Part shown: positions 1,591 to 21,428 of the stretch, piece after piece
Position numbering within the stretch: position 1 is the first letter of the stretch
How the letters are laid out: each line of letters opens with the position of its first letter
From: Heminiphilus faecis
GTDB taxonomy: Bacteria > Bacteroidota > Bacteroidia > Bacteroidales > Muribaculaceae
NCBI RefSeq assembly: GCF_008728965.1
Contig: NZ_VSMC01000020.1
Coordinates: 1-59,100 of the forward strand
DNA length: 59,100 bases
Reading direction: 5' to 3'
Translations under genes and position numbers: made by a program
The notes under the pieces: model-generated
What the model was told of the DNA's origin: nothing
The model's input: only the letters and a program-made list of their open reading frames with translations
Databases searched by the model: none

Positions 1591-1610
1591 ATTTTTAGTG
1601 GACAGTAATG
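1591..1610 (-). repeat. IS terminal inverted repeat, right
   Basis: Read on the minus strand this is CATTACTGTCCACTAAAAAT. It also encodes the final residues and the TAA stop (1597-1595) of the 978-residue protein. Confidence 0.88.
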
Positions 1611-4531
1611 TTACCACTTATAAAGCGAATAAAATTAAAGAACAACTGCATTGATGGATATTCAATATTTCTCCCCTCAGGTACAAGGAAGGAAATATCA
1701 TCATCTGTATCATTACAAATAAACTCGCCTTGATAATTTTCGTAAGCATCTATAAAAATATCATATAGCTTGGAAATATCATCGTCTGTAACTGGTTCGA
1801 GATCCACTTCAGCAACTATTTCATGAATATCTTTAGCGATATTATCCATTTCTTCTTTAAATGAATTAGATTCGAACTCATTTCTCAAAGACTCGTCCAT
1901 TCTGTCAGAATAGAAGTTGTACATTCCAACAAACTGTTTCCATTTATCGTAAAAGCCAAAAACATCAGAAGGTAATTCATCAGGGAATCCCGGCAAATGA
2001 CTTATTTCGTTCAACAGATAGTCAAGTCTAAGCTCATAATGATGATACGGACGCCGGCTGATGGTAATTTCAATTTCATTGAAAATGTCCATAGCATTAC
2101 TTATCAATCCACCTTTTTCTGAGTCGTTGAGCAATCCCTGTAGTTCAGTAGCACGCATCCGCACATCATCAAGAATCTCTTTGGCTTCATCAAAATTACC
2201 AAGACATAACAAAGGCTCTACCATTTGAATACGCGATGCAATATAATCGGCTATTCCGTTAGACGCATCTAAGTTGTCAATATCAGTCAGTTCTATTGAT
2301 TTTCTTGCGTATTCACAACCCAAACGAAGGTAGCCTCTATCCAATAGCTCACCCGACAAAGATTTATAGAAGAAGCATTTGTCAGTAAGATATTCGCCAG
2401 CTGCCATTTTTAACTTCAGAGCATACTGGTATTCAGTAGGCACAAAGTTATCAAATGTAGATAAATACTCTCCAATGGCGTTGAGGAGCTGATAATATAT
2501 AATGTCATCTTTTATATGGAGACTTCTTAATTGTAAATACGCCTTTAAAGCAATAATGGACAGCGAGTATCCAAATTCAACATATTCTACCAGATAATTA
2601 GCTCCCCGGAGGAAAAGTCTTATTATAAAGCATAAGAGACGCGGATCTTTGGATTGATCATACAAATCATTTATTTCGTCCCAGATATAAGTTATTTTCT
2701 TGAAATACTCATTATACGGACCAAAATCTGTTAAGGTCTCTAAGAAAAATAAATTACTTTGAACTAAACGGAACCTATCAGAATAATTGCGTGGATTGAT
2801 TTTTGACAATAAGGTCGCGTAAGTTTCACGGCTTTTATCCATATCATGAGATCTATCTGAACTCAAAAGTATCAGAACCTCATAAATGTCCAACAATGTC
2901 CATGTGGTGTCATTGGCATTATTATCTCCATCTTGTGAAACGTGATTGAGTTTATATATCCATTTTTTAGCTTTTATTGGGTATGTAATGTCTTTATCCG
3001 CAAAACCCGATAATTTTGAAACTATTAGATTTAAATCTTTCCCACAATGTTCATAGCTACTTCCACAAATATATTTGTACAAATATTCCAAGTGGCTAAT
3101 GGCGTCAGCGTGGTTATCATTAGCCTCAACAGTCGCCTTAACGTACAACAAAGAAAGGAGCTGCTTGTTTTGCTGTGTTCGTTCAAGTACATTGGCGTCT
3201 TCCAATGCTTTCATGTCGAGAGCCGTAAAGAAATCGTCAGAACCGATCAGCCAGCTCAGTTCCTTCATAATCCGATGAATCGCATTCTTATAATCGGTCC
3301 GAGATATTTCTACTGGCAATTCAAATAGAGCGTCAGAAATCTTTGGATTAACTCTTCGTTTTTTTTCTTCAACTAATATAGTGGACTTTATCAGTGATAA
3401 AAGGCGGTTCCAAACAGGATATGAATAATCCCATTTATACAATTTGTCTTTCTCAATTGGAATGGTAGCAGATCTTATATTATTGAATCTGATATAAGTT
3501 ATGATATCTTGAATAAACTCAGTTGACTTAGTGCCAGAATACCAATGAAGAAGTATCGTTTGAAACCAATGGTATACGATTCGGTCGTCCAAAGACTCAA
3601 TGCCGAACTCTGAAAGTTTTTTTTCGATCTCCTTGTAAGCCTGTCTTAATTTAGCCTTCTTCTTCTCTTTAGAGGTAGAAGTTGTTTGATGAAAACGAGC
3701 GTGTATTTGATGGAGCTCATCAAAAGCAGCCTTTCTACGCATTTCATTAAGTTCTCTACTCGCATCATTTGGTAACTTATTATCTGAAGGATGATAGTCT
3801 ACTTCATAAGTAAATTCGTAATGTCCTATTACTCCTTTCTTCTTTTTTACTATTCCATTGTTTTTGAGAATCTGGAGCCCGTCCTTAAATCGCTCCAAAT
3901 ACACTGTTTCAAGAGCCTCTTCCTTACCCTCCTTTTTTTCAACGATAGCAAAAAGAGGATCCTGTATTAAGTTATGTATAGCGTCAAGCAGCACGACTCT
4001 TGATGCAGAATCGTGTTCTAAATCGCGGGTTATATGCTCTAAAAGGATTTGGGCTGTAGTATATGGAACTTTATAGTTGGCAATGTGATTACTGACTTTT
4101 GAAAACGAGTAATTTTTATTGTCATCACAAATAAGAATTCCGACATTCTCAAAATACCTCACAAAGTGATTAACTATTACTTTCGTTTCCAACTCCTCTA
4201 ATATTTCACCATAGCCTCCATATCTTTTACTTCTTACCTCGGCTTTGCTTTTTGCAACACCCAATTTTTGGTCTGGATCTCCTGTTGTTATGATGGCTTT
4301 AGTCAACTCTGCTATGTCAGATTCATTCTTATCTGCAAGACCATAGAAGTGTTTCATTTGCTTTGACTTTAGGATATCAGCCAATTCCGATAGCCGCTGT
4401 TCAGATATCGGATCTCCAATTTTCTTATTGAACTCTTTTTCAAGTTCAAGGAAAATCGGGCAGTATTCTTCAGGAATAAACCACCAAGCTTCTTCGCGTG
4501 ATAAAAGATTGCTTTGTTCGTTAACGTTCAT
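1595..4531 (-). CDS. Large helical protein of unknown function, C-terminus rewritten by the IS
   Basis: I do not recognise this 978-residue protein. It has no signal peptide or membrane segment. A very basic charged segment lies around residues 285-305 (SKEKKKAKLRQAYKE). The C-terminal two thirds consist of repeated amphipathic helices of the kind seen in TPR-like scaffolds, and an acidic tail follows. The IS inserted within the final Asn codon. Joining 1620 back to 304 restores ...FIRFISGN followed at once by TGA, so the present protein only gains the four residues ITVH. It starts about 20 nt after the hsdM-like remnant. Like the 945-residue protein at the other end of the cluster, it may be a helical sensor or scaffold, but that is inference. 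Confidence 0.7.
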   Translation of the reverse strand: MNVNEQSNLLSREEAWWFIPEEYCPIFLELEKEFNKKIGDPISEQRLSELADILKSKQMKHFYGLADKNESDIAELTKAIITTGDPDQKLGVAKSKAEVRSKRYGGYGEILEELETKVIVNHFVRYFENVGILICDDNKNYSFSKVSNHIANYKVPYTTAQILLEHITRDLEHDSASRVVLLDAIHNLIQDPLFAIVEKKEGKEEALETVYLERFKDGLQILKNNGIVKKKKGVIGHYEFTYEVDYHPSDNKLPNDASRELNEMRRKAAFDELHQIHARFHQTTSTSKEKKKAKLRQAYKEIEKKLSEFGIESLDDRIVYHWFQTILLHWYSGTKSTEFIQDIITYIRFNNIRSATIPIEKDKLYKWDYSYPVWNRLLSLIKSTILVEEKKRRVNPKISDALFELPVEISRTDYKNAIHRIMKELSWLIGSDDFFTALDMKALEDANVLERTQQNKQLLSLLYVKATVEANDNHADAISHLEYLYKYICGSSYEHCGKDLNLIVSKLSGFADKDITYPIKAKKWIYKLNHVSQDGDNNANDTTWTLLDIYEVLILLSSDRSHDMDKSRETYATLLSKINPRNYSDRFRLVQSNLFFLETLTDFGPYNEYFKKITYIWDEINDLYDQSKDPRLLCFIIRLFLRGANYLVEYVEFGYSLSIIALKAYLQLRSLHIKDDIIYYQLLNAIGEYLSTFDNFVPTEYQYALKLKMAAGEYLTDKCFFYKSLSGELLDRGYLRLGCEYARKSIELTDIDNLDASNGIADYIASRIQMVEPLLCLGNFDEAKEILDDVRMRATELQGLLNDSEKGGLISNAMDIFNEIEITISRRPYHHYELRLDYLLNEISHLPGFPDELPSDVFGFYDKWKQFVGMYNFYSDRMDESLRNEFESNSFKEEMDNIAKDIHEIVAEVDLEPVTDDDISKLYDIFIDAYENYQGEFICNDTDDDISFLVPEGRNIEYPSMQLFFNFIRFISGNITVH
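1611..1619. repeat. Target-site duplication, right copy
   Basis: TTACCACTT, identical to 296-304. It lies within the last codons of the minus-strand gene. Confidence 0.85.
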
Positions 4532-5227: not shown

Positions 5228-5369
5228 ATTGGTTTATCTGTTTAATTTTGCCTACTCTTTAAAGGATTTTCGGCACCTCCATTGTTTTCTGCAACAAATA
5301 TAATATGAGTCAGTAGTCTATGGATAATTTTTTTCTCCAGAATTTGATCTTTCTATACCATTAGCCCGT

Positions 5370-7034
5370 TTAACATCTGAATCCTTCAACTTGGATATAT
5401 TTTAGAGCTAATTTGGTGAGTTTTATAAAATTAATATCTAGATTTTTGAATTGAGCATCCTTTTGCATGAATCGACTGAACGGGTATATCTCCTCCGTTT
5501 TGCTTTTAGGTGCACCAACATATTCATTCTTGAATCGAACTTCCATAGACAAGTCATCTTTATGGATGACGAGTAACATTTCACTCGGATTTCGTATGAA
5601 ATCGCGATTAATCATATCCGTGTCATTCATTGCGAAGTTTCGGCGGTACGCTTCTGTGATGGATACAACTCTATCAATGAATTCAGAAACTCGACTATCC
5701 GGATATCTTTGTAGTGCAAGGAAACGTATTGCATCTTCGTCAGGAACAATACTCTTATCCCTTTCGGCTTTCTCAAGTAGGAAGGCTTGATATCCATGCT
5801 CCATTGTAATATCATTGGTATTAAGACAAACCTTTATGTATGATTTTTCGCCATATAACTCCGGTCGCGGATATGTAATGTGGTCTTGAATAATTGAATG
5901 AAGATGCTCTGCAAATTCGCCACGCGATACGTCACTCATATACGACGGGCGATGGGTCTTGGCATAAAGCGCATCTATAGCAGGGATAATTTTATAACGA
6001 ATGGCATCATCATTAATGACCCCAAATTCTGTAAATAGTTGTTGAATCGGTCCATAATATTCGGTGAATAACTCGCCGTTTTCTTCAGTATTGTCAGTCC
6101 AGAAGAAACCAATAGTATTCTCTATATCCTCATTTCGTATGGTCATAAACTGCTCATCCACCATATCCTTGCATGATTCAATAGCAAAAAAACGATAAGA
6201 GTCAACATCATAAGGCATCGATTCGGACGATTCAGAATTAAGTTCTTCGATATGCGAAGCTAACTCATCAGAAAATCCGAATTTCGGTTGGATGAGAATT
6301 TTAGGAATGTTCGTCAATTGATGGGCAAAGAAGCACCCATTTCCATAACCAATTACAATGTCTATCTTATTTTCTTGAAGCTGATTTTTGAGAGACCCCA
6401 TCATCCCGATAGGATTCAGATCTTTATCAGCCACAAAAATTTTGCATTGAGGCAACCGAGTTCTAAAAAAGAACTTCAACGACATGAGGTTTGGATTGAA
6501 TAAATCATCTACAAGCAGTATTTTTACTGATGGAAGTCTCTGGACTAGATGCTCGTATGTCGCCTTATTTATCTCATTCTCAATTTGCTCATAAAAGTCC
6601 GACGGAATATTAGGATAAGAAAACTCTAATGCAATTCGCAGTACTGCATCTGCGACAATAGATATTTCCTGCACTGCTTGAATTAAAGCCTTGAGCGCAC
6701 CCCTCTCAGAAGAGTAAATAAAGCATTTCTTCAGGCATAAACATTGAGCCCCGACTTCAAAAGGGACAAAGAATGCCACTGCTTCAATGTGTGCATTAAG
6801 TTCATTAGCTAAGTACATAAGCCACGCATCGCTGATTTTTACGCCATATTCCGCAAAGTCTTCGGCATCTAATTCAAGATTTACGGATATTTCTGCATGT
6901 GTAACATCCAATTTTACACTTCCAAAGTAATTGCCAAGTCGGAATGTAATGGTACCATCGTACCATACTTTCATTGCCGAAATATTATTTGGTATGTTTG
7001 AGAGGCATTCTGCTATTTTATCATATAGGTTCAT
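5370..7034 (-). CDS. Large protein with degenerate YqiA-like hydrolase domain
   Basis: The protein has about 554 residues. The start at 7034 (MNLYDKIAEC) is chosen over the longer frame start at 7094 because a TAACTTTG promoter box lies between them (7081-7074). Residues about 1-135 form an unrecognised alpha/beta region. Residues about 170-250 resemble the YqiA/YcfP esterase fold: strand KILLV, then IDIVIGYGNG at the nucleophile elbow, then ILIQP. The elbow that should read GxSxG reads GYGNG, so the serine is missing and hydrolase activity is unlikely. The remaining C-terminal 300 residues are unrecognised. It lies between the Cys-rich protein and the phosphatase/chaperone cluster and has its own promoter. 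Confidence 0.6.
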   Translation of the reverse strand: MNLYDKIAECLSNIPNNISAMKVWYDGTITFRLGNYFGSVKLDVTHAEISVNLELDAEDFAEYGVKISDAWLMYLANELNAHIEAVAFFVPFEVGAQCLCLKKCFIYSSERGALKALIQAVQEISIVADAVLRIALEFSYPNIPSDFYEQIENEINKATYEHLVQRLPSVKILLVDDLFNPNLMSLKFFFRTRLPQCKIFVADKDLNPIGMMGSLKNQLQENKIDIVIGYGNGCFFAHQLTNIPKILIQPKFGFSDELASHIEELNSESSESMPYDVDSYRFFAIESCKDMVDEQFMTIRNEDIENTIGFFWTDNTEENGELFTEYYGPIQQLFTEFGVINDDAIRYKIIPAIDALYAKTHRPSYMSDVSRGEFAEHLHSIIQDHITYPRPELYGEKSYIKVCLNTNDITMEHGYQAFLLEKAERDKSIVPDEDAIRFLALQRYPDSRVSEFIDRVVSITEAYRRNFAMNDTDMINRDFIRNPSEMLLVIHKDDLSMEVRFKNEYVGAPKSKTEEIYPFSRFMQKDAQFKNLDINFIKLTKLALKYIQVEGFRC

Positions 7035-7073
7035 TGCTTTGTTTTTAATATAAGTGCTATTAATTCTACGCCA

Positions 7074-7081
7074 CAAAGTTA
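7074..7081 (-). promoter_or_regulatory. Bacteroidota -7 box for the YqiA-like gene
   Basis: TAACTTTG on the minus strand matches TAnnTTTG. It lies 40 nt before the ATG at 7034 and downstream of the alternative start at 7094, so it decides the start. Confidence 0.55.
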
Positions 7082-7128
7082 GTGAGATGAGCATGTCTCT
7101 TCATGGAGGAAAAATTTTCTCCATGAAT

Positions 7129-7460: not shown

Positions 7461-8030
7461 TCACTCGGATTCTACAGGAGTTCCCAATGTAAGATTAAAA
7501 TGCATCAAGACCTCTTCCAACGATATCAATATCGATTTTGCAGAATCTATACCAACATCAATGCGTCTAGGGTCGGGTGTTTCGCATTGGCCATGACAAT
7601 GCCCATGAAGATGAAATACTCCGTGATGCATTCCCGCCCATTCGACTAATGGGTAATGGCATAATACAAATTCCATATCCGATTGAAGAAATGTATATAT
7701 CTCTTTTTTGAATTTAGCGATCATGATTTGTTCCACCTTCTCAAAGTAATTGGATAGGCTTTTAAGCGATGAGTCGTGATTACCGGGACATAAATATTTA
7801 TATCCGTTAAGACGCTCTAAAATTTTTCTGTTTTCATTGGCGGATTTGAGGGAAAAATCACCAAGTATATACACCATGTCATGCTTTGAAACAGTAGAGT
7901 TCCAAAGTTCAATAAGTTTGTTATCATGGGCTTCAATATCTCCCATCTGAGCAAATGGCCGCCATTGATATAATTCCAATATCCTGCGGTGTCCAAGATG
8001 TAAATCAGAAGTAAAATATACGTTCGACAT
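7461..8030 (-). CDS. Calcineurin-like metallophosphoesterase
   Basis: This 189-residue single-domain phosphoesterase has the full metal-binding set: D9-L-H11 (SDLHLGH), GDF at 57-59, GNHD at 83-86, His125 and GHCHG at 143-147. The type is common in phages and mobile DNA and acts on phosphoester bonds. The substrate cannot be read from sequence. It starts 17 nt after the FtsZ-like gene and is the last member of the tight minus-strand cluster. With KptA nearby, a role in processing RNA 2'- or cyclic phosphates is an attractive inference, but it is not shown. Confidence 0.85.
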   Translation of the reverse strand: MSNVYFTSDLHLGHRRILELYQWRPFAQMGDIEAHDNKLIELWNSTVSKHDMVYILGDFSLKSANENRKILERLNGYKYLCPGNHDSSLKSLSNYFEKVEQIMIAKFKKEIYTFLQSDMEFVLCHYPLVEWAGMHHGVFHLHGHCHGQCETPDPRRIDVGIDSAKSILISLEEVLMHFNLTLGTPVESE

Positions 8031-8047
8031 ATATGCATAATTTAATA

Positions 8048-8392
8048 TTAATATATTGATATTCTATAATTGTTTTGGAGCTGTGGGTTATTAACCAGCC
8101 CCCATAACACACAGCTATCAGTATTCATGTTCGAATTTACATTGGATACCAATTGCATAATATCATTTAATTTATTGTTATGATCTATAGATGGCGACGT
8201 TTGAATCTGGATGACGATATTGCTTATTACAACGGAGATAAAATCCAACTTGCTGAATAATTCCTTCACGATACGAATGTCTGAATCAGCATAAAGCTCT
8301 ACATGTCTTAATGAAATCTCACTATTGTGCTGCAAAAGCATAATTTCTATGTCCCTGAAATCAAACGGCAGTCGTCCTCCGCCAAAAGCCAC
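8048..8392 (-). CDS. Small protein resembling the FtsZ C-terminal domain
   Basis: The protein has 114 residues from a GTG at 8392, overlapping the end of the KptA gene by 32 nt. It appears to begin where the C-terminal domain of FtsZ begins: RLPFDFRDIEIML lines up with FtsZ LINVDFADVRTVM. A later stretch (IVIQIQTSPS ... VLWGLVNNPQLQNNYRISI) lines up with FtsZ VLVNITAG ... VVIGTSLDPDMNDELRVTV. The GTPase half with the tubulin signature is absent. A free copy of this half could cap or block FtsZ or a tubulin-like partner. The similarity was judged by eye and could be a general alpha/beta pattern. Confidence 0.5.
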   Translation of the reverse strand: MAFGGGRLPFDFRDIEIMLLQHNSEISLRHVELYADSDIRIVKELFSKLDFISVVISNIVIQIQTSPSIDHNNKLNDIMQLVSNVNSNMNTDSCVLWGLVNNPQLQNNYRISIY

Positions 8393-9087
8393 TATTCATC
8401 CAATCGCCTAAATTAAATGACATAATGCCGTTATTGAATGTTGTCAATTTGAAGTCTAATTGAATATCTTGAAATCTATTAGATAACTCTTTTGGACATA
8501 CAACTTGAGTAAATTCGTTTTTCCATTTGTCAAAGTTCTCTTTGTCAAATGGATCTAACGGTGGCCATTCGATTTTAAAGTATTGACTTGGAACTTTTGA
8601 TACAAGCCATATGTGAACTACTGGGGTATAGAAATGATACCCGGCATATATCATTTCAATCGTATTTACACATGCTATTAACGGGTCTCCATGATGACGA
8701 CCAACTTCAATGGCTATATCTTTATCATCAGTGAGGTGCACAAAGTTACGAGACATAGGTAAAATACCATACTCTAAGATATCAATAGAGGCTTTTGTAG
8801 ATGTTCCATGATATAATTGCACAGGAGGGACTTTACACTTTAACCCTAAATCTACAGGGACAGAGTGTCCATAAAGTGCGCGAATGAGCGTGTGATCATC
8901 GTTAAACTCTAGTCTCATCTTTTCATCATTTAATACGATTATTGACTATTTCCTCATACGAAAACTCTTTTTCAGAAATTAAATAATCAACAGAGAGCCA
9001 TCCCCCTTGCTTAATAGGAGTCTTCTTATCATGACGTAGGATATATGCCAAAACCCTACTACGATAGCTATTATCTACACTCTTCAT
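8361..9087 (-). pseudogene. kptA: RNA 2'-phosphotransferase KptA/Tpt1, frameshifted
   Basis: KptA removes a 2'-phosphate from RNA by transfer to NAD. The first 53 codons (9087-8929) encode the winged-helix half with the catalytic Arg18-His19 pair (YILRH), then stop at TGA 8928-8926. The rest continues in the +1 frame: IRALYGHS, then PPVQLYHGTS, PMSR, VHLTDD, the catalytic Arg in VGRHHG, and WLVSKVP. The switch must occur between 8945 and 8928. The ATG at 8918 gives only the second half, without the Arg-His pair. About 65 residues extend past the family core. The gene overlaps the end of the membrane protein gene by 17 nt. It is a recent pseudogene, a sequencing error, or a case of +1 frameshifting. 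Confidence 0.85.
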
Positions 9088-9841
9088 CGTTTAACTCATT
9101 TTTGGTAGATTCCACTAAAATAGGTTGATTTGAGGCCTTATTATTGTCATCGTCCTCAATCTTGTTTAAAAGATTAGAGACTCGAATTTTGCTCAGTCCT
9201 ATTATGAAAGGAAGGCATAACATAATGGCAGGTATTAATGATGCTGCTGTGCTATAGTATTGTGAATATATGCCAAAAGCTCTGATTATCTCTGGACGAC
9301 CAATCAAGGTATTAAACCACCATAGTCCACCAAAAAGGAAAATACACGACACGAAATAAATTGTCAAATAATCGTCGGCATCTTTGAAATCTTTGTCCGA
9401 GATAACACGAGACAATGCTGAAAAAAATATACCACACGGAATAATAAGGCTACAGATAATTGGTGTGCTATACTCCCAGAGTAGTAAATACAAATAAATA
9501 ATGATGTATATGCCTATCCATGAAAGAATTATTTCGCCGATATTTAATGCCATCACTTTAATATTGAGTTCTCCAACTACCATATTCACAAGCAATTCTG
9601 ACATAACCTGTGCACCCATTATTATTGACATTACTATGAGTAAATAAAGCGCGTCATACAAAAGGGCATCTTCAGCTAAAAAGAAAAGATGGTTATAGAT
9701 ATTACCGAAAGTGCCAGCTGCATAAAATACAATGACAGTAGACATCGAAACGAAGTCCTGCACTAAACTCTTCCTAAAGAAGAGTATCATCGTCAAAAGG
9801 AGTGAACTAATTGTCACCCAGAAAAATAGTTCAGCACTCAT
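9071..9841 (-). CDS. Multi-pass membrane protein
   Basis: This 256-residue protein has about seven hydrophobic segments (roughly 5-22, 30-49, 60-80, 100-122, 128-146, 166-184 and 198-218). A polar, acidic cytoplasmic tail ends NELNDEECR. No family is recognised and no signal peptide is evident. It lies 17 nt after the PP2C gene and overlaps kptA, so the genes are probably co-translated. It may anchor the phosphatase and chaperone partners at the inner membrane. That role is inferred from position only. Confidence 0.65.
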   Translation of the reverse strand: MSAELFFWVTISSLLLTMILFFRKSLVQDFVSMSTVIVFYAAGTFGNIYNHLFFLAEDALLYDALYLLIVMSIIMGAQVMSELLVNMVVGELNIKVMALNIGEIILSWIGIYIIIYLYLLLWEYSTPIICSLIIPCGIFFSALSRVISDKDFKDADDYLTIYFVSCIFLFGGLWWFNTLIGRPEIIRAFGIYSQYYSTAASLIPAIMLCLPFIIGLSKIRVSNLLNKIEDDDNNKASNQPILVESTKNELNDEECR

Positions 9842-9858
9842 GTTGTATAGTATGATTA

Positions 9859-10602
9859 TTATAAATTTATTACAATAGCCGAGATATTATCATGACTGCC
9901 ACATTCAAGAGCACGCTTCACCAAATTATTAGCAGCTGTCTTGGCACAGGAATTATGGACAAGAATTGAATGAATCTCGGAGGATGACACGACATCGTAT
10001 AAGCCGTCAGAACATAAAAGAATCCTGTTGAATTTCGTTAACTCAAATGAGGATGTAAATAAATAATCGCTGAAGTAATTCAATTGTCGAGAACCGATAC
10101 ATTTATCAATTCGATTCCGCTTGGGATGGAGCATAGCCTCTTTCTCGGATATATGTCCCTCATCGAAAAGCCTACCTACGAACGAGTGGTCTTTAGTTAG
10201 TTTTGATAATTCGATGCCATCATTACAAAGTGCATATATTCTTGTGTCGCCTACATGACAAATATGTATAACATTATCTTCAGGAGATATTAGACATGCT
10301 GAAACTACTGTTGCCATGTTTTCATATCGTGGATTCTTCTGTAATTCCATGACATCATTGTTTGCTGCTATTACGGCCATGCGAAGATCTTCAAGACCGA
10401 TGTTGTCCAGATGGGCAAGATATTCGGAGATGCCCTTACACGTTACCATCGATGCGACTTCACCGGCATTTTCTCCGCCTACACCATCGGCTATTATAGC
10501 GAGAACATCTAATCCTCCGGAAATCGACTCTACGAGACAAAAATCCTCATTATTGTCTCGCAATCCTTGTTCTGAAATGGGAAAATATTCTATATTATTC
10601 AT
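9859..10602 (-). CDS. PP2C-family serine/threonine protein phosphatase
   Basis: This 247-residue protein is a single PP2C domain with every core motif: R15-x-x-N-E-D20, D39GVGG43, MATVV (96-100), GDTRIY (118-123), DHS (138-140), LLCSDGLYD (about 196-203) and D238-N239. The metal-binding aspartates are intact, so it should be an active Mn/Mg-dependent phosphatase. No serine/threonine kinase is visible in the window. It overlaps the SecB-like gene by 4 nt (ATGA), which indicates translational coupling. Its natural target may be a neighbour such as the chaperone or the unfoldase. Confidence 0.93.
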   Translation of the reverse strand: MNNIEYFPISEQGLRDNNEDFCLVESISGGLDVLAIIADGVGGENAGEVASMVTCKGISEYLAHLDNIGLEDLRMAVIAANNDVMELQKNPRYENMATVVSACLISPEDNVIHICHVGDTRIYALCNDGIELSKLTKDHSFVGRLFDEGHISEKEAMLHPKRNRIDKCIGSRQLNYFSDYLFTSSFELTKFNRILLCSDGLYDVVSSSEIHSILVHNSCAKTAANNLVKRALECGSHDNISAIVINL

Positions 10603-11690
10603 AATTCTATGGTGAAAGCCTCTAATTTAGCATTTGAAATTTCATCGTAAAGAATATCAACAAATTCTTGTTGTTCATCGCTTAATGCATCGTAATGGAA
10701 AGCATTACGATACTCCTCTCTTGACGGATTGGGATTACTTAATTCTTCAAAAGCACCGAACTCCTGTTCGATAAGGAAAATATTTACATGGGACTCCGTC
10801 AGAACATTTACAATTAAATCTCCTGCTAAGGAAAAGAATTCCACTGATGATAAATCAGAAATTTTTTTGTCAACTTCTGTTCCTTTATATCGATAAAAAA
10901 GTTCTGGTTTTTCTCTATTATCATTGACCAACCACCATTCACAATCATTTGAAGCCACAATCAAAAAGAACATCAAGCGTTTTGCATACAGGTCTTGCTC
11001 TATTTCATACCTTGTATTGTAATCTATAAAAGATAGATACTTGAACAATGTTCTAGTTAATGTAAAATTTGTGTACCCGGAAATTTCTCCGCCGCTCCTT
11101 TTAAGTGTTTCAAGGAACTCTTTACCGGTTTCTTCGGACTCTACTTCAACAAGAAGTTTTTTTAATGTAAGTATGGAGTCAGGCTCATTCTCGAAGCAAG
11201 TATTTATTGAATCCTCATATTGCTTTTGATTGCTATTGTATAATTCATTTACGGTAATAACACTTCCTCCAATCATCTTTCTTTCCGAAAATGAATAGTT
11301 GGGAAGCATCACAGGATTAAAGCCGCTAAATGATGTTGTACTATGAACTAACACTGCGACATGGGGATATATTATCTGAGGTATTTCAATTGTTAACAAG
11401 CTCTTTAATTCAGAATCTTCTAATGATTCGTGTGTCTCAACTATTGCACCATAAACTACAGAAATTATAAAAATAGAGTTTCCGTCTTCAAGGACAACCG
11501 AGCACTTTAACTTTAAATTTATACAAAAAATATCCGTGTTTACATCAGTCTGTGATTCTACGTCTATATGAGTAGACAGGGTTGATTTCCCTTCGTAATT
11601 CATAAAGAAGAACTCTGGAGCCGCCGGACTATTAAAGTCCAATTGCTTAACATACTCTTGTAGAATTGCATATTTGGGCTGAGAATCCAT
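10599..11690 (-). CDS. SecB-like chaperone fused to an unknown C-terminal domain
   Basis: Residues about 7-135 of this 363-residue protein resemble the export chaperone SecB: AILQEYVKQLDF then SPAAPEFFF (SecB xYVKDLSFEnPxxP), several beta strands, then IIYPHVAVLVHSTTSFSGF and PVMLP (SecB ILFPYxRExIxxxTxxGGFPPLxLxPxxF). SecB is usually about 150 residues, so about 220 unrecognised residues follow. The gene is 2 nt after the AAA+ gene and overlaps the PP2C gene by 4 nt. SecB-like proteins are known to chaperone antitoxins in toxin-antitoxin-chaperone systems, which makes a client-protecting role possible here. Genuine export work is less likely for such a fusion in an island. Confidence 0.65.
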   Translation of the reverse strand: MDSQPKYAILQEYVKQLDFNSPAAPEFFFMNYEGKSTLSTHIDVESQTDVNTDIFCINLKLKCSVVLEDGNSIFIISVVYGAIVETHESLEDSELKSLLTIEIPQIIYPHVAVLVHSTTSFSGFNPVMLPNYSFSERKMIGGSVITVNELYNSNQKQYEDSINTCFENEPDSILTLKKLLVEVESEETGKEFLETLKRSGGEISGYTNFTLTRTLFKYLSFIDYNTRYEIEQDLYAKRLMFFLIVASNDCEWWLVNDNREKPELFYRYKGTEVDKKISDLSSVEFFSLAGDLIVNVLTESHVNIFLIEQEFGAFEELSNPNPSREEYRNAFHYDALSDEQQEFVDILYDEISNAKLEAFTIEL

Positions 11691-11692
11691 TT

Positions 11693-13051
11693 TTAGAGCG
11701 TTTTTAATTGTTGTTCAACGTATATTTCATCGACATCGATAGTATGACAAGCACTACCCGCCACAGGCAATTTGTAATACAGGCTGTTCAGACATGAGGC
11801 AAAAAGAGTCTGCACTCCACGGAATCCCAATCCTCGCCCCGCTGCTTTTCTACATATGAGTCTCAACGCTGTTTCTGTAAACCGAAGTTTGGCATTATAT
11901 AGATTGCGGGTGTATGATATCTGTCTCGTCAATATTGAATTTTTTGACTCTGTAAGAATCTGGTACATCTCATTCTCACCGAGGGGATTGAGAGTAATAA
12001 TTTGCCCAAGTCGACCAGTAAACTCTGCCATAAAACCCCATTGTTGCAAATCGTCGGAGGTTATTTGCGAATAAACGTTTTGCTGTTTATCGGGACTAAG
12101 AGAAGTATTACAAGTAAAACCAACTCCATAGATCAAGTTTAGTCTTTTCTTAATCATTTTCTCAATTCCTGAAAATGCTCCTGAAAATACAATGAGCATA
12201 TTGGAAATCGAAAGTTCAATAAATGATTGTTCGCCATTTTTCCCCAATCCGTTATTCAAACGAATATTATTTCTCGGATCGGTAAGATTCATCATAAACC
12301 GCATGATGTCATAACCCATATCGTCTGTTTCTTTGCCACAGCCCGTATGAGTAATCTTGTCTATCTCGTCTATGAAAATGATGGCGTTCTCAACTTCCGA
12401 CCGACCATATTTGCGTACCTTTTCAGCCAGGACATCTTCAAATGATGCGCCCTTCCATCCAGTAGGCGTACATTCAGATGAGTTTATCATGATAAATGGA
12501 CTGTCACAAATTTCAGAAAACGAATTAAGCGTTTCTGTCTTTCCACTACCTGTGGGTCCACATAGAAGGATTGGTTTTGTCATTGGACAACCAAATCCAT
12601 ACTTCCCCTTCGCATAATGCTGAAAGAAAGGAACGGAAAGCTGCTCTATCGCCGAGTTTTGTCCCTTGATAATTTTTTTTACAGATGAAGCCATTTCTTC
12701 AGGAGAAGCAAACTGAGGAGTGCCAAAAACATCAAGATAGTTTACCTGATATTGCTCGGCAATATAATCGAAATCATCTTCCTCAATCCTTCCAAAAGCT
12801 TTTGCCCATTCTTGGACTCTATTTTTCATCCGTTTATGCCAATTTTTGTCAGATGACTTTGTTTTCAGCGATTGCAAATGAGGGGCTGTAAAATCCTTTA
12901 TTTTGGCATAGGTGGTATTGCCTGTTACAAGGGCATTGACAATACGTTGTACATGCGATATAGGTATATCTGCCAGAAATAATCTAGCCAATGCATCAAT
13001 TACCTCATTCTGAGGCATAGATGATTTGATATTTATGCCGAGAAATTTCAT
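11693..13051 (-). CDS. ClpX-like AAA+ unfoldase without the zinc domain
   Basis: This 452-residue protein has a ClpX-type ATPase core after a unique N-terminal region of about 130 residues that lacks the ClpX zinc-binding cysteines. It shows Walker A GPTGSGKT (165-172), Walker B IIFIDEID (224-231), the box EFTGRL (343-348) and a sensor-2 Arg near 411 (GLGFRGV). Residues 310-312 read VGF at the place of the IGF loop that docks ClpX on ClpP. It could therefore feed substrates to ClpP, with the new N-terminus choosing them. It is the first gene of the coupled cluster, which favours the SecB-like protein or the small proteins upstream as adaptors or substrates. It is not the housekeeping ClpX. 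Confidence 0.88.
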   Translation of the reverse strand: MKFLGINIKSSMPQNEVIDALARLFLADIPISHVQRIVNALVTGNTTYAKIKDFTAPHLQSLKTKSSDKNWHKRMKNRVQEWAKAFGRIEEDDFDYIAEQYQVNYLDVFGTPQFASPEEMASSVKKIIKGQNSAIEQLSVPFFQHYAKGKYGFGCPMTKPILLCGPTGSGKTETLNSFSEICDSPFIMINSSECTPTGWKGASFEDVLAEKVRKYGRSEVENAIIFIDEIDKITHTGCGKETDDMGYDIMRFMMNLTDPRNNIRLNNGLGKNGEQSFIELSISNMLIVFSGAFSGIEKMIKKRLNLIYGVGFTCNTSLSPDKQQNVYSQITSDDLQQWGFMAEFTGRLGQIITLNPLGENEMYQILTESKNSILTRQISYTRNLYNAKLRFTETALRLICRKAAGRGLGFRGVQTLFASCLNSLYYKLPVAGSACHTIDVDEIYVEQQLKTL

Positions 13052-13119: not shown

Positions 13120-13344
13120 TTAATAAGGTCTGATTTTCCCATTAAACATTCGGATATCTTCGCCTAACCGGCGGAAATCTTTAACCTTCTTGCGTTCCAG
13201 GTGAACCAAAGGTGTCCAACTGCCAAGAATGCGATCGGTGTAAACCTGCCCGTCATAGTTCGGGTGATATGAGAAGGTAGTCCCACGATATGTACTAACG
13301 AAACGGTGCATGTCTTGATCGTTTTTGAATTCAATTGTAATCAT
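13120..13344 (-). CDS. Small protein, member of a local paralogue family
   Basis: This 74-residue unrecognised protein is basic overall. Its end (RKKVKDFRRLGEDIRMFNG) shares the pattern R-x-x-[VM]-x-[SD]-F-[QR]-x-[IL]-x-x-D-x-x-[LM]-F with the two small proteins upstream (13,479-13,715 and 14,154-14,342). It lies about 70 nt before the AAA+ gene, separated by a hairpin. It may be a substrate or adaptor of the unfoldase. It carries no known domain. Confidence 0.55.
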   Translation of the reverse strand: MITIEFKNDQDMHRFVSTYRGTTFSYHPNYDGQVYTDRILGSWTPLVHLERKKVKDFRRLGEDIRMFNGKIRPY

Positions 13345-13422
13345 GTCTGAATTTATTAGTTTACCTCATCATTTTGCCTCAGAGGTTCTGGCATTAAATT
13401 TTCAAGACAGTTCAGGTTTTAA

Positions 13423-13456
13423 ATCTTAGGAGGAAGCAGATTATCCCTCCTAAGAT
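13423..13456. terminator. Strong hairpin between small genes
   Basis: Perfect 11-bp arms (ATCTTAGGAGG / CCTCCTAAGAT) lie around a 12-nt loop, just past the 78-residue gene. No U-run follows on the minus strand. It is probably a terminator or mRNA stabiliser separating two paralogous small genes. Confidence 0.6.
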
Positions 13457-13478
13457 AAAGTTATTAGGGACAATTGCT

Positions 13479-13715
13479 TTACTGGTAGAGTTTATCAGTG
13501 TGACCTCCGAATAGTTCACCATCTTCGTGAATATGCTGGAAAGACTTCACATCACTGCGGTCATATCTCGCAGTATAAGTGTCATCAGATTCTTTCTCGA
13601 TTTCGACGCGACCACTGTATGCAGGATTGTCGTAGGTTTCGTGGCTCTCTTTAAGAGTCTTGGCATTTTCTTCTGTCATACCCTTGATCTCAAATTTGTC
13701 GTTGTAGTAACCCAT
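13479..13715 (-). CDS. Small acidic protein, member of a local paralogue family
   Basis: The protein has 78 residues and is hydrophilic and acidic, with no recognised domain. It starts MGYYNDKFEI and ends RSDVKSFQHIHEDGELFGG followed by HTDKLYQ. Both ends parallel the 62-residue protein at 14,154-14,342 (MSYYDKYKIEIF ... FGAFTDTIYQ), and the end also parallels the 74-residue protein. The repeated small genes just before an unfoldase gene suggest a duplicated partner family. Its function is unknown. Confidence 0.6.
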   Translation of the reverse strand: MGYYNDKFEIKGMTEENAKTLKESHETYDNPAYSGRVEIEKESDDTYTARYDRSDVKSFQHIHEDGELFGGHTDKLYQ

Positions 13716-13798
13716 AGTTTTACGTTTAATTTGTTTCTGCCATCTATTATAGGCTTCAGGCTTGGCCTTGTTTTTAGAAGAGAGGAGAATTATGCATC

Positions 13799-13996
13799 TT
13801 ATCGAGTGTGCTGATCATAGCAGGATGATACGTATTCGCGCTCATGCTGATAGTCATCCCATGCGCCGGATGATGGGGATGTAGAACTGCTCGATGATGT
13901 GTCATCAGAGGATCCGTAGGTGATCTCGGGCTCACCATAAAAGTCACGGCTATTGTCCTCGATTGAGTAATCTTCTGTACGTGAAAACCAAGACAT
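13799..13996 (-). CDS. Small low-complexity serine/aspartate-rich protein
   Basis: This 65-residue protein is dominated by Ser, Asp, Tyr and Glu. A poly-serine patch lies in the middle (DDTSSSSSTSPSSG), and the start is MSWFSRTEDYS. It is probably disordered and a plausible phosphorylation target, given the PP2C gene downstream. A TAAATTTG promoter box lies upstream at 14,050-14,043. It does not share the motif of its small neighbours. It is unlike any family I know. Confidence 0.5.
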   Translation of the reverse strand: MSWFSRTEDYSIEDNSRDFYGEPEITYGSSDDTSSSSSTSPSSGAWDDYQHEREYVSSCYDQHTR

Positions 13997-14042
13997 ATGT
14001 TTAATTTTTAAGGGTTAATGTTTTTGTTTGTTATTTACAATG

Positions 14043-14050
14043 CAAATTTA
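14043..14050 (-). promoter_or_regulatory. -7 box for the small-gene group
   Basis: TAAATTTG on the minus strand, about 45 nt before the start of the 65-residue gene. Confidence 0.5.
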
Positions 14051-14153
14051 GGGATATATCCTCTATAGCCGAAGGGGAAAAAATATTCCCATATTCAATC
14101 CTCAAAGAAAAGAAGTGGTATTACGCCATCTATCAGTTTTCCTAGATGACTCC

Positions 14154-14342
14154 CTATTGATATATAGTATCAGTGAAAGCTCCGAAAAGAGCTAAATCCT
14201 TACTAATCTGTTGGAATGACTCCATATCGTAGCGGTCAAATACCGTAGTGAAGATTGTATCTCGCTCTTCCACTATTTCCGCTGTTTCATCCTCATTAAT
14301 AATCTCGAAAATCTCGATTTTATATTTGTCATAGTAACTCAT
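14154..14342 (-). CDS. Small acidic protein, member of a local paralogue family
   Basis: This 62-residue unrecognised protein starts MSYYDKYKIEIFEI and ends RYDMESFQQISKDLALFG followed by AFTDTIYQ. Its middle is very acidic. It is clearly related to the 78-residue protein at 13,479-13,715 by both termini. A TAATTTTG box at 14,395-14,388 provides a promoter. It is transcribed divergently from the 945-residue gene, and the two promoters would share the 130-nt gap. Confidence 0.58.
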   Translation of the reverse strand: MSYYDKYKIEIFEIINEDETAEIVEERDTIFTTVFDRYDMESFQQISKDLALFGAFTDTIYQ

Positions 14343-14473: not shown

Positions 14474-17311
14474 ATGAGAGATCCCCATAAAGAATCACGT
14501 GTTCTTCGACATTTGCGTATTGCTGACGGCTATCTTAAGTCTGGTAATAAACTCACAAAAGCGGTATTTAGGAATTTAATCGAAAGAGAAGGCGATTTAC
14601 TGGGTATTACAGAGGAAACTAAAGAAAAATGCAAAAATAAGGATGGCGAAATAATCGAATACCTTTTAGAAGGCTATCGTATAAATTACATTAATAAAGC
14701 GTGGACAAAACTTAGGGATAGACTTAAGGAAGAAGCAAAGAAGAAAGGAGATATTGCCAGTATATTGATAATAGAGGATAAACACTATCGTGGATATTCT
14801 CAAAGTTTCTCCTATGTTGTAAAAGGATACTCGATTTTATCTCATATTGAGGATAATAAAACCAAGAGGAGATCTGAATTGGAAATAGATTTAGATAAAA
14901 GATTGCAAACTATTAATTTGATAGATTTTGATATTAAAGATGTTACCTCTGAATTTTCTAAGCTGATTTTTGGGTCTGATTATCCTGAAATAGAGAAAAA
15001 GGCGATTGCTCTTTTGAATAAAAAATTCGTATTTGAACTCGAACAAATTATGAATTTAGAGGAAGCATCCGAAAGCTCTCAAATGGCTATTTTAACTCGC
15101 TATCGGAATTTGTTAAATACACGAGACAATATATTAGATTCTAATTATGCATATTGTCTATACAGATATGCCGAATTTATTAAAAAGAATCAAGCATCCA
15201 TATATAATACGATTAATCCAGATTCAGTCATCGATTGGACTCATGAAATTTGTTATTCGCTAGAGCGTGCTGTACAAATAACAGAACATGACCCTACACA
15301 AATCATAAATAATACCCGTTATATATTGGCATATGCAAACTATATCAACTGTAAAAATTTATATAGCGATAATCGATTGTTGAACCTGTATAATAAATTA
15401 TTAAGTAATTTATTGCAGATTTCCAACAGTTTATTCAAAGCCGATTGCTTGATGACTTGTGCTGATTATTTTGCCACGAGAAATGAACACCTGATTGCAT
15501 GGGATGCGCTTTCACAGGCCAATGAGGTTCTTTTAGAAATGTCAAATCATGATAATAATGTCCTTGCTAGACTTGTAATAAATCATGATATGATGGCAAG
15601 AGTGGCTGAGGCAGTCGGGTACTCAAATCTTATTGTTCTATGCAAATACGAAACTGCTATTAGATATTCTAAAAATCTATCATATGCAGATTTAAAAGCA
15701 CAGTCCTTAGATTTGAACTCGACGTATAGTAGATATGAATCAAGACTATTAGAATTGAATATGATTGAGCAGGCAAATTCTACCTATATCCAACATCTAA
15801 ATTTTCTAATCAAATCATACACTGAAATAAACTATAATGACAGGCGTCATTATTACATGAGTTCCTGTTTTTTTGAATGGTCTTGGTTCTTACACTTAAA
15901 TGATTGTCTGGAAAAATATTTTTGCGAATACAATAAAATGCTAAGTCGGATTGCCGAACTTGGGGTACTTTATTTTGCTGATGACTTTATTGAAGAATTA
16001 GAATTACTCCAACTAATTTGGAATTACTCTTATAATTCTAGTCAATATTATGAATCACAAATAGTATACGCCGACACACTTTTTAAACTAGCGGAAAAAC
16101 AGAGTTATATTTTCTCTTATCATGGAGATTTTACTCATATTATAGAAGCAAATTTCAAAAAAGCGTTGCTAATATATGAGAAATATTCCAGTACAGAAAT
16201 GCGATGCCTGATAAGTGCTGTAGACACAAAATTTCAAATTGCTGAGTTAAATTCGTTCAGTAGCAATCGAGATCCTGATAAAGTTATTAATGAATACGAA
16301 TCGTTATTATCATTTCTTGATGAGGTCGGATATGATACTCCTTTTTTTAAGCTTCAATATCTTAAAGTTCTTAATAGTTATATTAGATATTTAATATCGC
16401 AGTCTTGCAACTCAAATATAAAATCTTTGATTAGTGAAGCGAGGGGTGCTTATATTAATCTTCTACCCTATATCCGTATTGATTTTAAGGAATGGGATAA
16501 GTATAAAATCATTAATTATTTGTTTTCCTCTAATACAACGTGTCATCTTTCTGAAAATGATATCGATTATTTTTATTCTCTTGCTATCCCTGATAATAAC
16601 TTATGCTATTTTCAAAATTCATGTCTCTACCAATTTACGCAAATATATGAACTTTTAATTTGGTACTATAAAAATGCCTATTTGAAGACCCAAATAGATG
16701 ACAATCAAGCTGCGGATCTTCTAACACAAGTATTTTATTATATTTTTAATGATGAATTAACTAAAGATATTAGTGACTATAATTTTTTTGAGTTGCTAAA
16801 GCATTGTGTTGAAGCGATTCCCAACGAAGCCGAGCAGATAAAACTACGGCAATTTTTGAGAAACTTTTTGATAAAAGAAGTTCAACTCACAGAATATTTA
16901 CCATATCTTCCTCAAAATATAATAACGAAAAAGTTAGAATCAATAAAATGGAAGGAAGATAGTTCAGATATCATTTACGATTTAGCAGATTTAGCTTTAA
17001 TTTATAATGATTTAGGCTTGCGGCGTAAAGAGAAATGGGCTTATTTGAAAATTCTAGAGATTATTAATAAATATAACAGTACAAGAGAAAACGTTGAAAA
17101 AAACTCTGATACTGAAGATGAACTTGATGCATATATAAATTTGTATCGCATATATTTACAATCGTGTCGATATAAAATTGCCTTAAACTATCTTGATAAA
17201 ATAATATCGATTTATGAAAATCTGCGCAAAGAGAATAAATCATACCACAAAGTGGTAAAACAATATAAAATTGAAAAATTAGAACTTGAAGACAAGTTAT
17301 TTGAGGAATAA
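14474..17311 (+). CDS. Large helical TPR-like protein of unknown function
   Basis: The protein has 945 residues, with no signal peptide or membrane segment. The N-terminal 110 residues are basic and could bind nucleic acid or a partner. From about 220 onward it consists of repeated helix pairs rich in Tyr, Leu and Asn. The last 150 residues look like TPR units (DLADLALIYNDLGLRRKEKW, then YRIYLQSCRYKIALNYLDKI). The coding sequence is very A+T-rich. It is the only plus-strand gene of the cluster and mirrors the 978-residue helical protein at the other side. A sensor or scaffold role is plausible but not shown. Confidence 0.65.
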   Translation: MRDPHKESRVLRHLRIADGYLKSGNKLTKAVFRNLIEREGDLLGITEETKEKCKNKDGEIIEYLLEGYRINYINKAWTKLRDRLKEEAKKKGDIASILIIEDKHYRGYSQSFSYVVKGYSILSHIEDNKTKRRSELEIDLDKRLQTINLIDFDIKDVTSEFSKLIFGSDYPEIEKKAIALLNKKFVFELEQIMNLEEASESSQMAILTRYRNLLNTRDNILDSNYAYCLYRYAEFIKKNQASIYNTINPDSVIDWTHEICYSLERAVQITEHDPTQIINNTRYILAYANYINCKNLYSDNRLLNLYNKLLSNLLQISNSLFKADCLMTCADYFATRNEHLIAWDALSQANEVLLEMSNHDNNVLARLVINHDMMARVAEAVGYSNLIVLCKYETAIRYSKNLSYADLKAQSLDLNSTYSRYESRLLELNMIEQANSTYIQHLNFLIKSYTEINYNDRRHYYMSSCFFEWSWFLHLNDCLEKYFCEYNKMLSRIAELGVLYFADDFIEELELLQLIWNYSYNSSQYYESQIVYADTLFKLAEKQSYIFSYHGDFTHIIEANFKKALLIYEKYSSTEMRCLISAVDTKFQIAELNSFSSNRDPDKVINEYESLLSFLDEVGYDTPFFKLQYLKVLNSYIRYLISQSCNSNIKSLISEARGAYINLLPYIRIDFKEWDKYKIINYLFSSNTTCHLSENDIDYFYSLAIPDNNLCYFQNSCLYQFTQIYELLIWYYKNAYLKTQIDDNQAADLLTQVFYYIFNDELTKDISDYNFFELLKHCVEAIPNEAEQIKLRQFLRNFLIKEVQLTEYLPYLPQNIITKKLESIKWKEDSSDIIYDLADLALIYNDLGLRRKEKWAYLKILEIINKYNSTRENVEKNSDTEDELDAYINLYRIYLQSCRYKIALNYLDKIISIYENLRKENKSYHKVVKQYKIEKLELEDKLFEE

Positions 17312-20061: not shown

Positions 20062-21180
20062 ATGGCAAAAATCCTCTCTCAAAATTATAGTTACGCTAAT
20101 AATTCAAGCGGTGATCTTATAAATGTTTCAACTGCTCAACGTAACGAAAAATATTTTTGTCCTATATGTGGAGAATTAATGAATCCGCATATGGGCAAAG
20201 TGCGTAGATGGCATTTCGTTCATAAAAATGCTGGGAATTGTTCTTATGAATCATACCTTCATAAATTAGCGAAAATCAAGATAAGAGAAGCATTTCTTTC
20301 TTCCGAGCATTTCCTGCTTTCCTACAATGCTAAGGCATTTTGCTCTTTAGAATGTCCGTTCATTGGTTTTCCAAAATGTGAAGGTGAAAAACCTGTTGTA
20401 TTCGATTTGCGTAGATATTATGATACCTGCGAGATAGAAGCGACTTACCACCAATACAGAGCAGACTTGCTTTTAACATCATCTACAAATCCCAAGACAC
20501 CTCCTGTGCTAATTGAAATTATGGTTACTCATAAATGTACAGAGGACAAAATCAAGGATGGCGTTCGTATTATTGAAATACCAATTCAATCAGAAGAACA
20601 AATTGACAATATAGTCAGCAACTGTAAGTTAACAGCTGTAAGGGATGAGCATTACAATTATAGCTATTCGAACGATAGAAATATCATTTTATATAACTTT
20701 AATAAAGTAGAATCATTTGACCCAATCGGCAGCTTCGATGAGTATGAAGACTGCTTTAGTCGAAAAAACACAATAGTTTTTTGGTTAAATAGCCAAGGAC
20801 AGTTCCGTTTATTTGATTGCCATTGCTATGAAGTAGGTAAGAAGTTACCGTCCAATGTCCATTATTACATAACCGAGATAGCGACTCCATTCAAAGAGAT
20901 TTTTCAAGAATTTTCTAAACGTGGTGTAAAAATTCGCAATTGTTTCTTATGCAAATTCAGCAAGCAGGACTCATGGGGAGAAAGGCTATGTGTCCTATAT
21001 AAGAAACATAATTTGCCACGCAAACCTTCTCCATATTGTGCTCTATCTTGTTCCCATTACAGAGAAGACTTTGGGGTTTCACAAAACATGATTCCGATTG
21101 CACAATCCCTATCATCAGAACAGATTAACTGTATGCAAAGCCATAAGTTCTATTATCACATTTGTAAAGATATTCTTTAA
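20062..21180 (+). CDS. CoiA-like nuclease-domain protein
   Basis: The N-terminal 80 residues of this 372-residue protein resemble the competence protein CoiA: a CPICGELM zinc knuckle, then RRWHFVH and an HKLAKIKI helix. A PD-(D/E)xK-type nuclease core follows (YRADLLL ... PPVLIEIMVTH, about residues 133-160). A second Cys cluster lies near the C-terminus (CFLCKF ... CALSC). The protein is cytoplasmic. CoiA-like nucleases on mobile DNA are thought to process or cut DNA. Here it is paired with a lipoprotein and sits before an AbiH gene, so a defence role is possible. Confidence 0.7.
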   Translation: MAKILSQNYSYANNSSGDLINVSTAQRNEKYFCPICGELMNPHMGKVRRWHFVHKNAGNCSYESYLHKLAKIKIREAFLSSEHFLLSYNAKAFCSLECPFIGFPKCEGEKPVVFDLRRYYDTCEIEATYHQYRADLLLTSSTNPKTPPVLIEIMVTHKCTEDKIKDGVRIIEIPIQSEEQIDNIVSNCKLTAVRDEHYNYSYSNDRNIILYNFNKVESFDPIGSFDEYEDCFSRKNTIVFWLNSQGQFRLFDCHCYEVGKKLPSNVHYYITEIATPFKEIFQEFSKRGVKIRNCFLCKFSKQDSWGERLCVLYKKHNLPRKPSPYCALSCSHYREDFGVSQNMIPIAQSLSSEQINCMQSHKFYYHICKDIL

Positions 21181-21182
21181 AT

Positions 21183-21359: not shown

Positions 21360-21428
21360 TAACCGCACTAACACTTGCATTGGTAAATTATACTATTACG
21401 TTTTCGATTAAGATTGTGAATTATTAAA

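Follow-up and report, generated by a model that had tools for sequence, protein, structure and literature searches.

A ClpX-like AAA+ gene, a SecB-fusion gene, PP2C and KptA in a conserved order: a candidate unfoldase-adaptor module with a phosphate-directed arm

Why should genes for an AAA+ unfoldase, a SecB-like chaperone, a protein phosphatase and an RNA-end enzyme stand side by side, and do they form one system? The question is raised by positions 7461..13051 of a 59,100-nucleotide (nt) stretch of Heminiphilus faecis DNA (contig NZ_VSMC01000020.1 of assembly GCF_008728965.1), which is termed the window. A preliminary description, made from the letters of this DNA, had read the block as seven tightly packed or overlapping genes and a candidate new system, a stress or anti-phage module in which client proteins are held by the SecB-like part, unfolded by the AAA+ protein and gated by phosphorylation. 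The seven minus-strand open reading frames (ORFs), their coordinates and their spacings (2, -4, 17, -17, -32 and 17 nt) all agree with the sequence. Pfam and NCBIfam recovered an AAA+ protein of ClpX type, SecB, PP2C, KptA and Metallophos, and gave no support to the FtsZ-C-like assignment of one further ORF. All the larger ORFs between 14342 and 1595 are on the minus strand, so that neither 13051 nor 7461 marks a clear end of the block. It contains the following features.

11693..13051, minus strand: predicted AAA+ unfoldase, ClpX-derived by Pfam/NCBIfam, tree and motifs; relatives in loci L009, L039, L062 and L067, and a truncated one in L068
10599..11690, minus strand: SecB-like domain (residues 3-135) followed by a C-terminal domain (about residues 150-363), no Pfam family for the latter; from Pfam and profiles
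9859..10602, minus strand: PP2C Ser/Thr phosphatase of Stp1 type; from Pfam/NCBIfam and motifs
9071..9841, minus strand: membrane protein with seven hydrophobic stretches, between PP2C and KptA
8926..9087, minus strand: N-terminal piece of KptA, 53 residues with the LRH motif, ended by a stop in its own frame
8361..8918, minus strand: remainder of KptA (RNA 2'-phosphotransferase with the ADP-ribosyltransferase (ART) fold), in a different frame; from Pfam
8048..8392, minus strand: 114-residue ORF with a GTG start, a doubtful gene with no clear relative
7461..8030, minus strand: calcineurin-like metallophosphoesterase; from Pfam Metallophos

Genome comparison revealed that four of these genes, in the order AAA+, SecB-fusion, PP2C and KptA, are common to the window (genome G000) and to two other genomes, G035 (locus L009) and G161 (locus L039), which together represent three genera of one family. 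The SecB protein was searched against 148 related genomes, of which five matched; the one full-length relative besides the window protein came from G035. Profiles run across the family (397 genomes, six matching) added G161 and G174. In L009 the four genes share a strand and are spaced 13, 14 and 1 nt apart; in L039 the spacings are 21, 1 and 1 nt. The window proteins share 28-33% (AAA+), 22-26% (SecB-fusion), 35-49% (PP2C) and 33-42% (KptA) identity with the two full relatives, and the same order with such small gaps at 22-49% identity indicates that the linkage has been kept for long. The flanks of the core differ among the three genomes; ORFs of at least 80 codons outside it, compared across window positions 1-24000, L009, L039, L040, L010 and L062, gave no match between loci at 1e-4, except two antisense matches over module genes. 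Conservation of the four-gene unit is thus well supported, and the core operon would have spread patchily, by horizontal transfer. The combination of AAA+, SecB-fusion, PP2C and KptA was not found described in the open-licence PubMed Central (PMC) literature, judged by title and abstract opening among the matches listed, in line with the preliminary description, which knew of no described system with this set.

The co-occurrence check suggested there succeeds for these four genes in both relatives, together with a phosphoesterase remnant in G161, and fails for the other genes, and with them for a seven-gene system. The membrane protein does have its seven hydrophobic stretches; it has no relative in the seven other loci compared and is regarded as a local add-on. 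The 114-residue ORF overlaps KptA in another frame. Its FtsZ reading was dropped, as neither Pfam nor a search of PDB sequences taken to E 5 gave an FtsZ match; the best Pfam match is HTH_60 (E 0.076, below cut-off), and a match in L009 (E 0.008 over 45 residues) was taken as chance. This ORF, the frameshifted KptA and the insertion sequence (IS) element nearby are what one would expect if the block were a random pile-up of decayed genes, the outcome that the preliminary description had set against its own proposal. With the same four-gene order in two other genera, and with the AAA+, SecB-fusion and PP2C genes at full length and their motifs kept, this explanation is refuted for the four-gene core and very improbable overall; it may hold for window positions 8048-9087.

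The AAA+ protein is ClpX-like over residues ~110-448 only, so the earlier ClpX-like label applies to that part; for the first ~110 residues, Pfam yields nothing above cut-off. Its scores fall under the curated ClpX cut-offs (182.1 against 359 and 158.7 against 370.75 bits). In a maximum-likelihood tree with long module branches and a root that is not known, the five module AAA+ proteins are split from 47 ClpX-type proteins by a branch with 100/100 support. All five keep Walker A, the Walker B Glu, the Arg finger, the sensor-2 Arg, the aromatic pore residue and [VI]G[FY]; in the window, Walker A reads GPTGSGKT, Walker B IFIDEIDK, the pore loop GWKG and the ClpP-loop-like motif GVGF. These shared features of core, pore, Arg finger, sensor 2 and ClpP loop liken the protein to the ClpX of ClpX-adaptor systems. 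Unlike ClpX, the module proteins lack the zinc-binding domain, with no CxxC at its position in any of the five (the four commonest CxxC forms account for 44 of the 47 ClpX-type proteins), and the SGEGVQ segment is missing. The pore loop reads GWKG, GYKG, GWRG or AWSG, with Lys, Arg or Ser in place of the Val of GYVG, which is present in 47 of 47 ClpX-type proteins. The module AAA+ proteins are, as far as tree and motifs tell, a ClpX-derived and separate group.

In ClpX, from which we take the names and roles of the loops, the [LIV]G[FY] loop docks ClpP. The five module proteins bear this motif as GVGF, RIGY, QVGF, KVGF and KVGF; clpP is present in six of six genomes searched, and the module AAA+ may likewise dock ClpP. 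The window genome carries a separate clpX (G000:C91). A phylum-wide AAA+ search passed 1e-55 in 158 of 395 genomes; among the matches listed, the window alone reaches the N-terminal domain, the others starting at model position 101 or later. For the AAA+ protein, PADLOC gave a weak DolB match (8.6e-7). Three weak AAA+ matches from a scan of genome contigs were not used.

The neighbouring gene encodes a 363-residue protein, of which residues 3-135 match Pfam SecB at 5.6e-18, under the curated SecB equivalog cut-offs (71.0 against 143 and 55.8 against 102.8 bits). Its C-terminal domain matches no Pfam family above cut-off. This domain occurs in six genomes (G000, G035, G161, G536, G784 and G785), and an AAA+ gene adjoins it in all six; SecB is present in three of them and missing from G536, G784 and G785. 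An order-wide search (393 genomes, 18 matching, mostly short SecB-like genes) led to G536, matched by the C-terminal part at 3.4e-22. There, in L062, the partner has an acidic N-terminal stretch in place of SecB, and an AAA+ gene is its neighbour. Three of eight genomes in the family of G536 match; the pair is complete in G784 (L067), and in G785 the AAA+ is truncated. As G161, G536, G784 and G785 were found via the partner, the unbiased direction is that the partner implies AAA+; in two AAA+ searches that bear on the reverse direction, the full-length matches were G000 and G035, both of which have the partner. Two further C-terminal matches, G394 (8.7e-4) and G097 (4.5e-4), were judged chance and left out of the six, since G394 was not recovered by the profiles, the G097 match spans 60 positions, and neither has AAA+ in the DNA examined; counted as real relatives, they would give six of eight beside AAA+.

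The AAA+ and its partner are likely an unfoldase-adaptor pair. Because the AAA+ stands beside the C-terminal domain even where SecB is missing, we infer that this domain docks on the AAA+, whereas the SecB half would be an exchangeable client-holding part. The earlier notion of holding by SecB and unfolding by AAA+ would fit this anatomy, a SecB protein carrying an AAA+-tied domain. As for the neighbourhood of the pair, a BspA-type leucine-rich repeat (LRR) protein, by eye without signal peptide, follows it at L062 7460-8803 and L067 3422-4765. In L068 (G785:C143) 2392-3275 the truncated AAA+ runs into a remnant of the C-terminal domain, which reads as a decayed copy of the pair. Upstream of the AAA+ in L039, positions 11199-12464 encode a 421-residue protein of unknown family, with no match in the other loci compared.

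The third core gene encodes a PP2C phosphatase with the Stp1-type metal-binding motifs, which read RDNNED, DGVGG, SDGL and GSHDN in the window and have counterparts in L009 and L039 (the PP2C of L040, in G174, is cut). Its Stp1 match reaches 182.8 bits, below the equivalog cut-off of 230, and PADLOC gave a PDC-M21C match at 1.1e-7. PP2C genes of the module profile stand near KptA in 4 of the 15 KptA loci of the family (the window, L009, L039 and L040, all module-type) and are absent near KptA in 10 other contexts; none was seen near KptA in G027, where the contig has only 3.5 kb upstream.

Pfam PF01885 (KptA) was found in 15 of 247 family genomes. The family assigned earlier to the window gene stands; the single open frame does not, as the N-terminal part (8926-9087) and the remainder (8361-8918) are in different frames. 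The Tpt1 tetrad, given as Arg18, His19, Arg68 and Arg121 of CthTpt1 in excerpts of PMC6333775, is kept in L039, L009, L040 and L010; in the window the N-terminal piece supplies the first two residues and the other frame the remaining pair. The tetrad is thus present in five of five module-type KptA proteins, the window copy being split. In addition, the equivalent of the NAD-pocket Arg139 is His in the window; a change of the same position to Ala in Runella Tpt1 led to loss of activity at low NAD+, according to excerpts of the same paper. On account of the frame split and this His, the window KptA appears broken or failing, and the RNA arm there is probably dead or failing. The window KptA also has a longer tail than its relatives, and that of G027 has Tyr for the NAD-site His101. 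A separate peculiarity was seen in the G035 KptA (L009 7921-8448), whose IRA..GHS motif, elsewhere bearing Arg/His, contains Lys and Met, the Lys at the IRA Arg.

Over 168 residues, the metallophosphoesterase of the window shares 44% identity with a counterpart in L199 (G053), where the gene overlaps KptA, and a 68-codon phosphoesterase remnant directly follows KptA in G161 (L039 6823-7026); none is present in G035. From the L199 overlap and the G161 remnant, this phosphoesterase is, by sequence, a recurrent companion of KptA. Lipoprotein-type look-alikes (by eye) of 370-391 codons also lie near kptA, at L010 1802-2977, L199 1912-3024 and L201 7908-9065.

The module KptA resembles known KptA/Tpt1 enzymes in family and tetrad. 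It differs from that of bacterial RNA-repair operons in its linkage to PP2C, SecB and AAA+ and in having no ligase or polynucleotide kinase: Pfam detected neither among the window genes scanned, and the ORF lists of L009 and L039 likewise contain neither. Such a repair set does exist in another genome of the family, where RNA ligase, a protein with HD and P-loop kinase parts, a 300-residue gene and KptA stand in a row (L195, G184:C11, 4436-7812). That set brings up a stress operon without a defence role, in which protein quality control (SecB, AAA+ and ClpP) and RNA-end repair (KptA, with the phosphoesterase in some loci) are expressed together after heat, oxidative or toxin damage. All four families are generally known to have repair or quality-control members, KptA stands with a phosphoesterase in the window, in L199 and as a remnant in L039, and the tetrad is kept in all five module-type proteins. 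The core is found, however, in 3 of 397 genomes, with low guanine plus cytosine (GC) content in two of three hosts and differing flanks, and housekeeping systems are seldom so patchy; we consider this explanation possible, if on the doubtful side.

Among described systems, the anti-phage system CmdTAC, the new name of PD-T4-9 (excerpts of PMC9519451), comes nearest in its logic. According to excerpts of PMC11618068, newly made capsid protein binds its chaperone; with the antitoxin removed by ClpP, an ADP-ribosyltransferase directed at RNA is released. The module shares with this toxin-antitoxin-chaperone (TAC) type a SecB-like chaperone of the same profile family, a link to Clp proteolysis and an RNA enzyme of the ART superfamily. 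It differs in having its own AAA+, a SecB fused to an AAA+-linked domain, PP2C and KptA, and in having neither an antitoxin ending in -AA nor a match to a CmdT-type toxin.

Could KptA then be an RNA-modifying toxin, with the SecB-like protein and the private unfoldase as sensor and switch? Enzymes of the Tpt1/KptA type are able to ADP-ribosylate phosphate ends of RNA, and a role as toxins has been suggested for them (excerpts of PMC11833690); their wide bacterial presence is called a longstanding conundrum (excerpts of PMC6333775). The capsid-titrated chaperone of CmdTAC supplies a precedent for such a switch, and the SecB part of all three fusions matches PADLOC PD-T4-9_C, weakly (7.8e-6, 1.3e-5 and 1.2e-4). 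The SecB-like gene of G174, in contrast, has no PADLOC match, and the toxin model PD-T4-9_A found no match among the seven module proteins of the window up to E 0.1. Moreover, no -AA tail was found among 22 module-locus proteins and the five small window ORFs listed, whereas the middle gene ends in -AA in all five TAC-type loci examined (L011, L012, L042, L063 and L064, from 18 short SecB-like matches outside module loci), the chaperones of which are PD-T4-9_C by PADLOC. The intact tetrad of the G035 KptA and the recurring phosphoesterase raise the stress-operon explanation and lower the toxin one, which we regard as quite unlikely. The module may work partly like a TAC system and, by these tests, is not one. 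As a side observation, the window's own genome has a separate TAC-type locus (L042, G000:C62, 1937-3190), with a PD-T4-9_C chaperone and an -AA middle gene; its first gene has no PADLOC match.

Our preferred answer, held tentatively and at slightly less than an even chance, is an unfoldase-adaptor pair with a coupled PP2C-KptA arm for output or repair, directed against conflict or stress. A private ClpX-derived AAA+ ring would cooperate with its own partner protein, whose SecB-like half would hold non-native client chains and whose C-terminal domain would deliver them to the AAA+, which would unfold and thread the client, probably into host ClpP. A second, coupled arm of PP2C and KptA would act on phosphate marks: PP2C on a Ser/Thr-phosphorylated protein, and KptA on RNA 2'-phosphate ends via ADP-ribosyl chemistry, joined in some loci by the phosphoesterase. 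The trigger would most likely be a conflict or stress that gives rise both to protein that is misfolded or foreign and to RNA that is damaged or marked; phage infection is the leading candidate. Gene order, conservation, domain make-up, retained motifs and the presence of clpP are observed, and from there the transfer of clients and the joint role of the two arms are inferred.

Several observations weigh against this answer. The full four-gene order occurs in just three of the 397 family genomes. G536, G784 and G785 hold the AAA+ pair with the LRR gene and show no PP2C or KptA in the DNA examined. The small contig of G174 (L040) carries PP2C-KptA-SecB, with PP2C cut by the contig end and SecB without the fused C-terminal domain, and in G027 (L010) KptA stands with a second MraY and a SecB-like gene, without PP2C. 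The Walker B Asp, which the window keeps, is replaced by His in four of the five module AAA+ proteins, another departure from ClpX that leaves ATP turnover a predicted activity. The GC content of the module, distinct from that of the flank in the window (0.37 against 0.51) and in G161 (0.38 against 0.51), equals it in G035 (0.43 and 0.43) and is close to it in G536 (0.34 and 0.36). No copy of the module was found in plasmids, phages or viral contigs: tblastn recovered no SecB-fusion in plasmids or phages, and neither the AAA+ N-terminal domain nor a near DNA match turned up in plasmids; viral contigs yielded no copy. An AAA+ alignment from viral contigs was set aside, as its rows, at least 80, all begin at residue 88 or later and represent the ClpX-like part only. 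Finally, no kinase lies near the module in six genomes searched, the nearest being ~26 kb away in G035 and the others on other contigs; in G035 and G174 the kinases are grouped with further PP2C genes at a distance from the module. The gating by phosphorylation that was first proposed is not supported as a closed circuit.

The same absence separates the module from the kinase-kinase-phosphatase (KKP) systems, which have two Ser/Thr kinases beside the phosphatase. The likeness lies in a phosphatase within a conflict-type module; the KKP phosphatase is reportedly a PP2C.

The incomplete loci might also be explained by two independent pairs, AAA+/partner and PP2C/KptA, carried as cargo of the same islands without mutual gain. 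Such independence would account for the first pair standing alone in G536 and G784, and for PP2C-KptA-SecB without the fused C-terminal domain in G174. It leaves unexplained why three genera, at 22-49% identity, keep one gene order with small gaps, and it sits poorly with a SecB that adjoins PP2C and KptA even without the C-terminal domain; we think it unlikely. In G027, the second MraY (L010, G027:C12, 4194-5450) is a copy with 55% identity, and another mraY is present elsewhere in that genome; the second copy begins 18 nt past KptA, and the SecB-like gene follows it after 2 nt.

An anti-phage role for the unfoldase-adaptor module is a hypothesis. The context leans to a conflict role, because the same 23-kb stretch also holds AbiH, a CoiA-like gene, a Mob_Pre gene and the IS element. 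The GC content of this stretch forms a mosaic: it is low over 1-17 kb and over 20-22 kb, and rises near the Mob_Pre gene. The CoiA-like gene and then AbiH occupy window positions 20062-22343, 7-9 kb from the module, and both domains are known from phage defence; CoiA-related domains and SecB-like chaperones are among the reported anti-phage proteins in excerpts of PMC9519451.

A bolder version of the proposal, which we offer as doubtful, is an immune or stress machine in which an exchangeable capture domain (SecB, or an acidic stretch with an LRR neighbour) is mounted on a standard docking domain, so that the unfoldase selects foreign or misfolded proteins; wired to phosphate chemistry on protein (PP2C) and RNA (KptA), it would stand as an alternative to TAC systems that does without an antitoxin. 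If true, some bacteria would carry a second ClpX-like machine, transferable and served by an adaptor of its own, apart from resident ClpX and coupled to RNA-end chemistry, with proteolysis, SecB-type sensing and KptA joined in one operon. The exchangeable capture domain would then be a case of an AAA+ docking domain reused with new client-binding parts.

The remaining genes of the window lie around the block. The IS element (305-1610) contains a DUF4372/DDE transposase gene at 419-1549 between 20-nt inverted repeats (305-324 and 1591-1610, 95% complementary). Proteins of 978, 574 and 945 residues, encoded at 1595-4531, 5370-7094 and 14474-17311, have no Pfam match; the first two prolong the minus-strand run below the block, and the large proteins at 1595-4531 and 14474-17311 proved unrelated when compared. 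Promoter and terminator scans gave values near chance. Upstream of the AAA+ gene, positions 13120-14342 encode three small related proteins (62, 78 and 74 residues) with a common C-terminal motif; tested as a possible fifth component, they were absent from all the other loci that were searched. On the minus strand at 5249-5282, a match to the Rfam cis-regulatory RNA DUF805b scores 38 bits, against a cut-off of 35.6.

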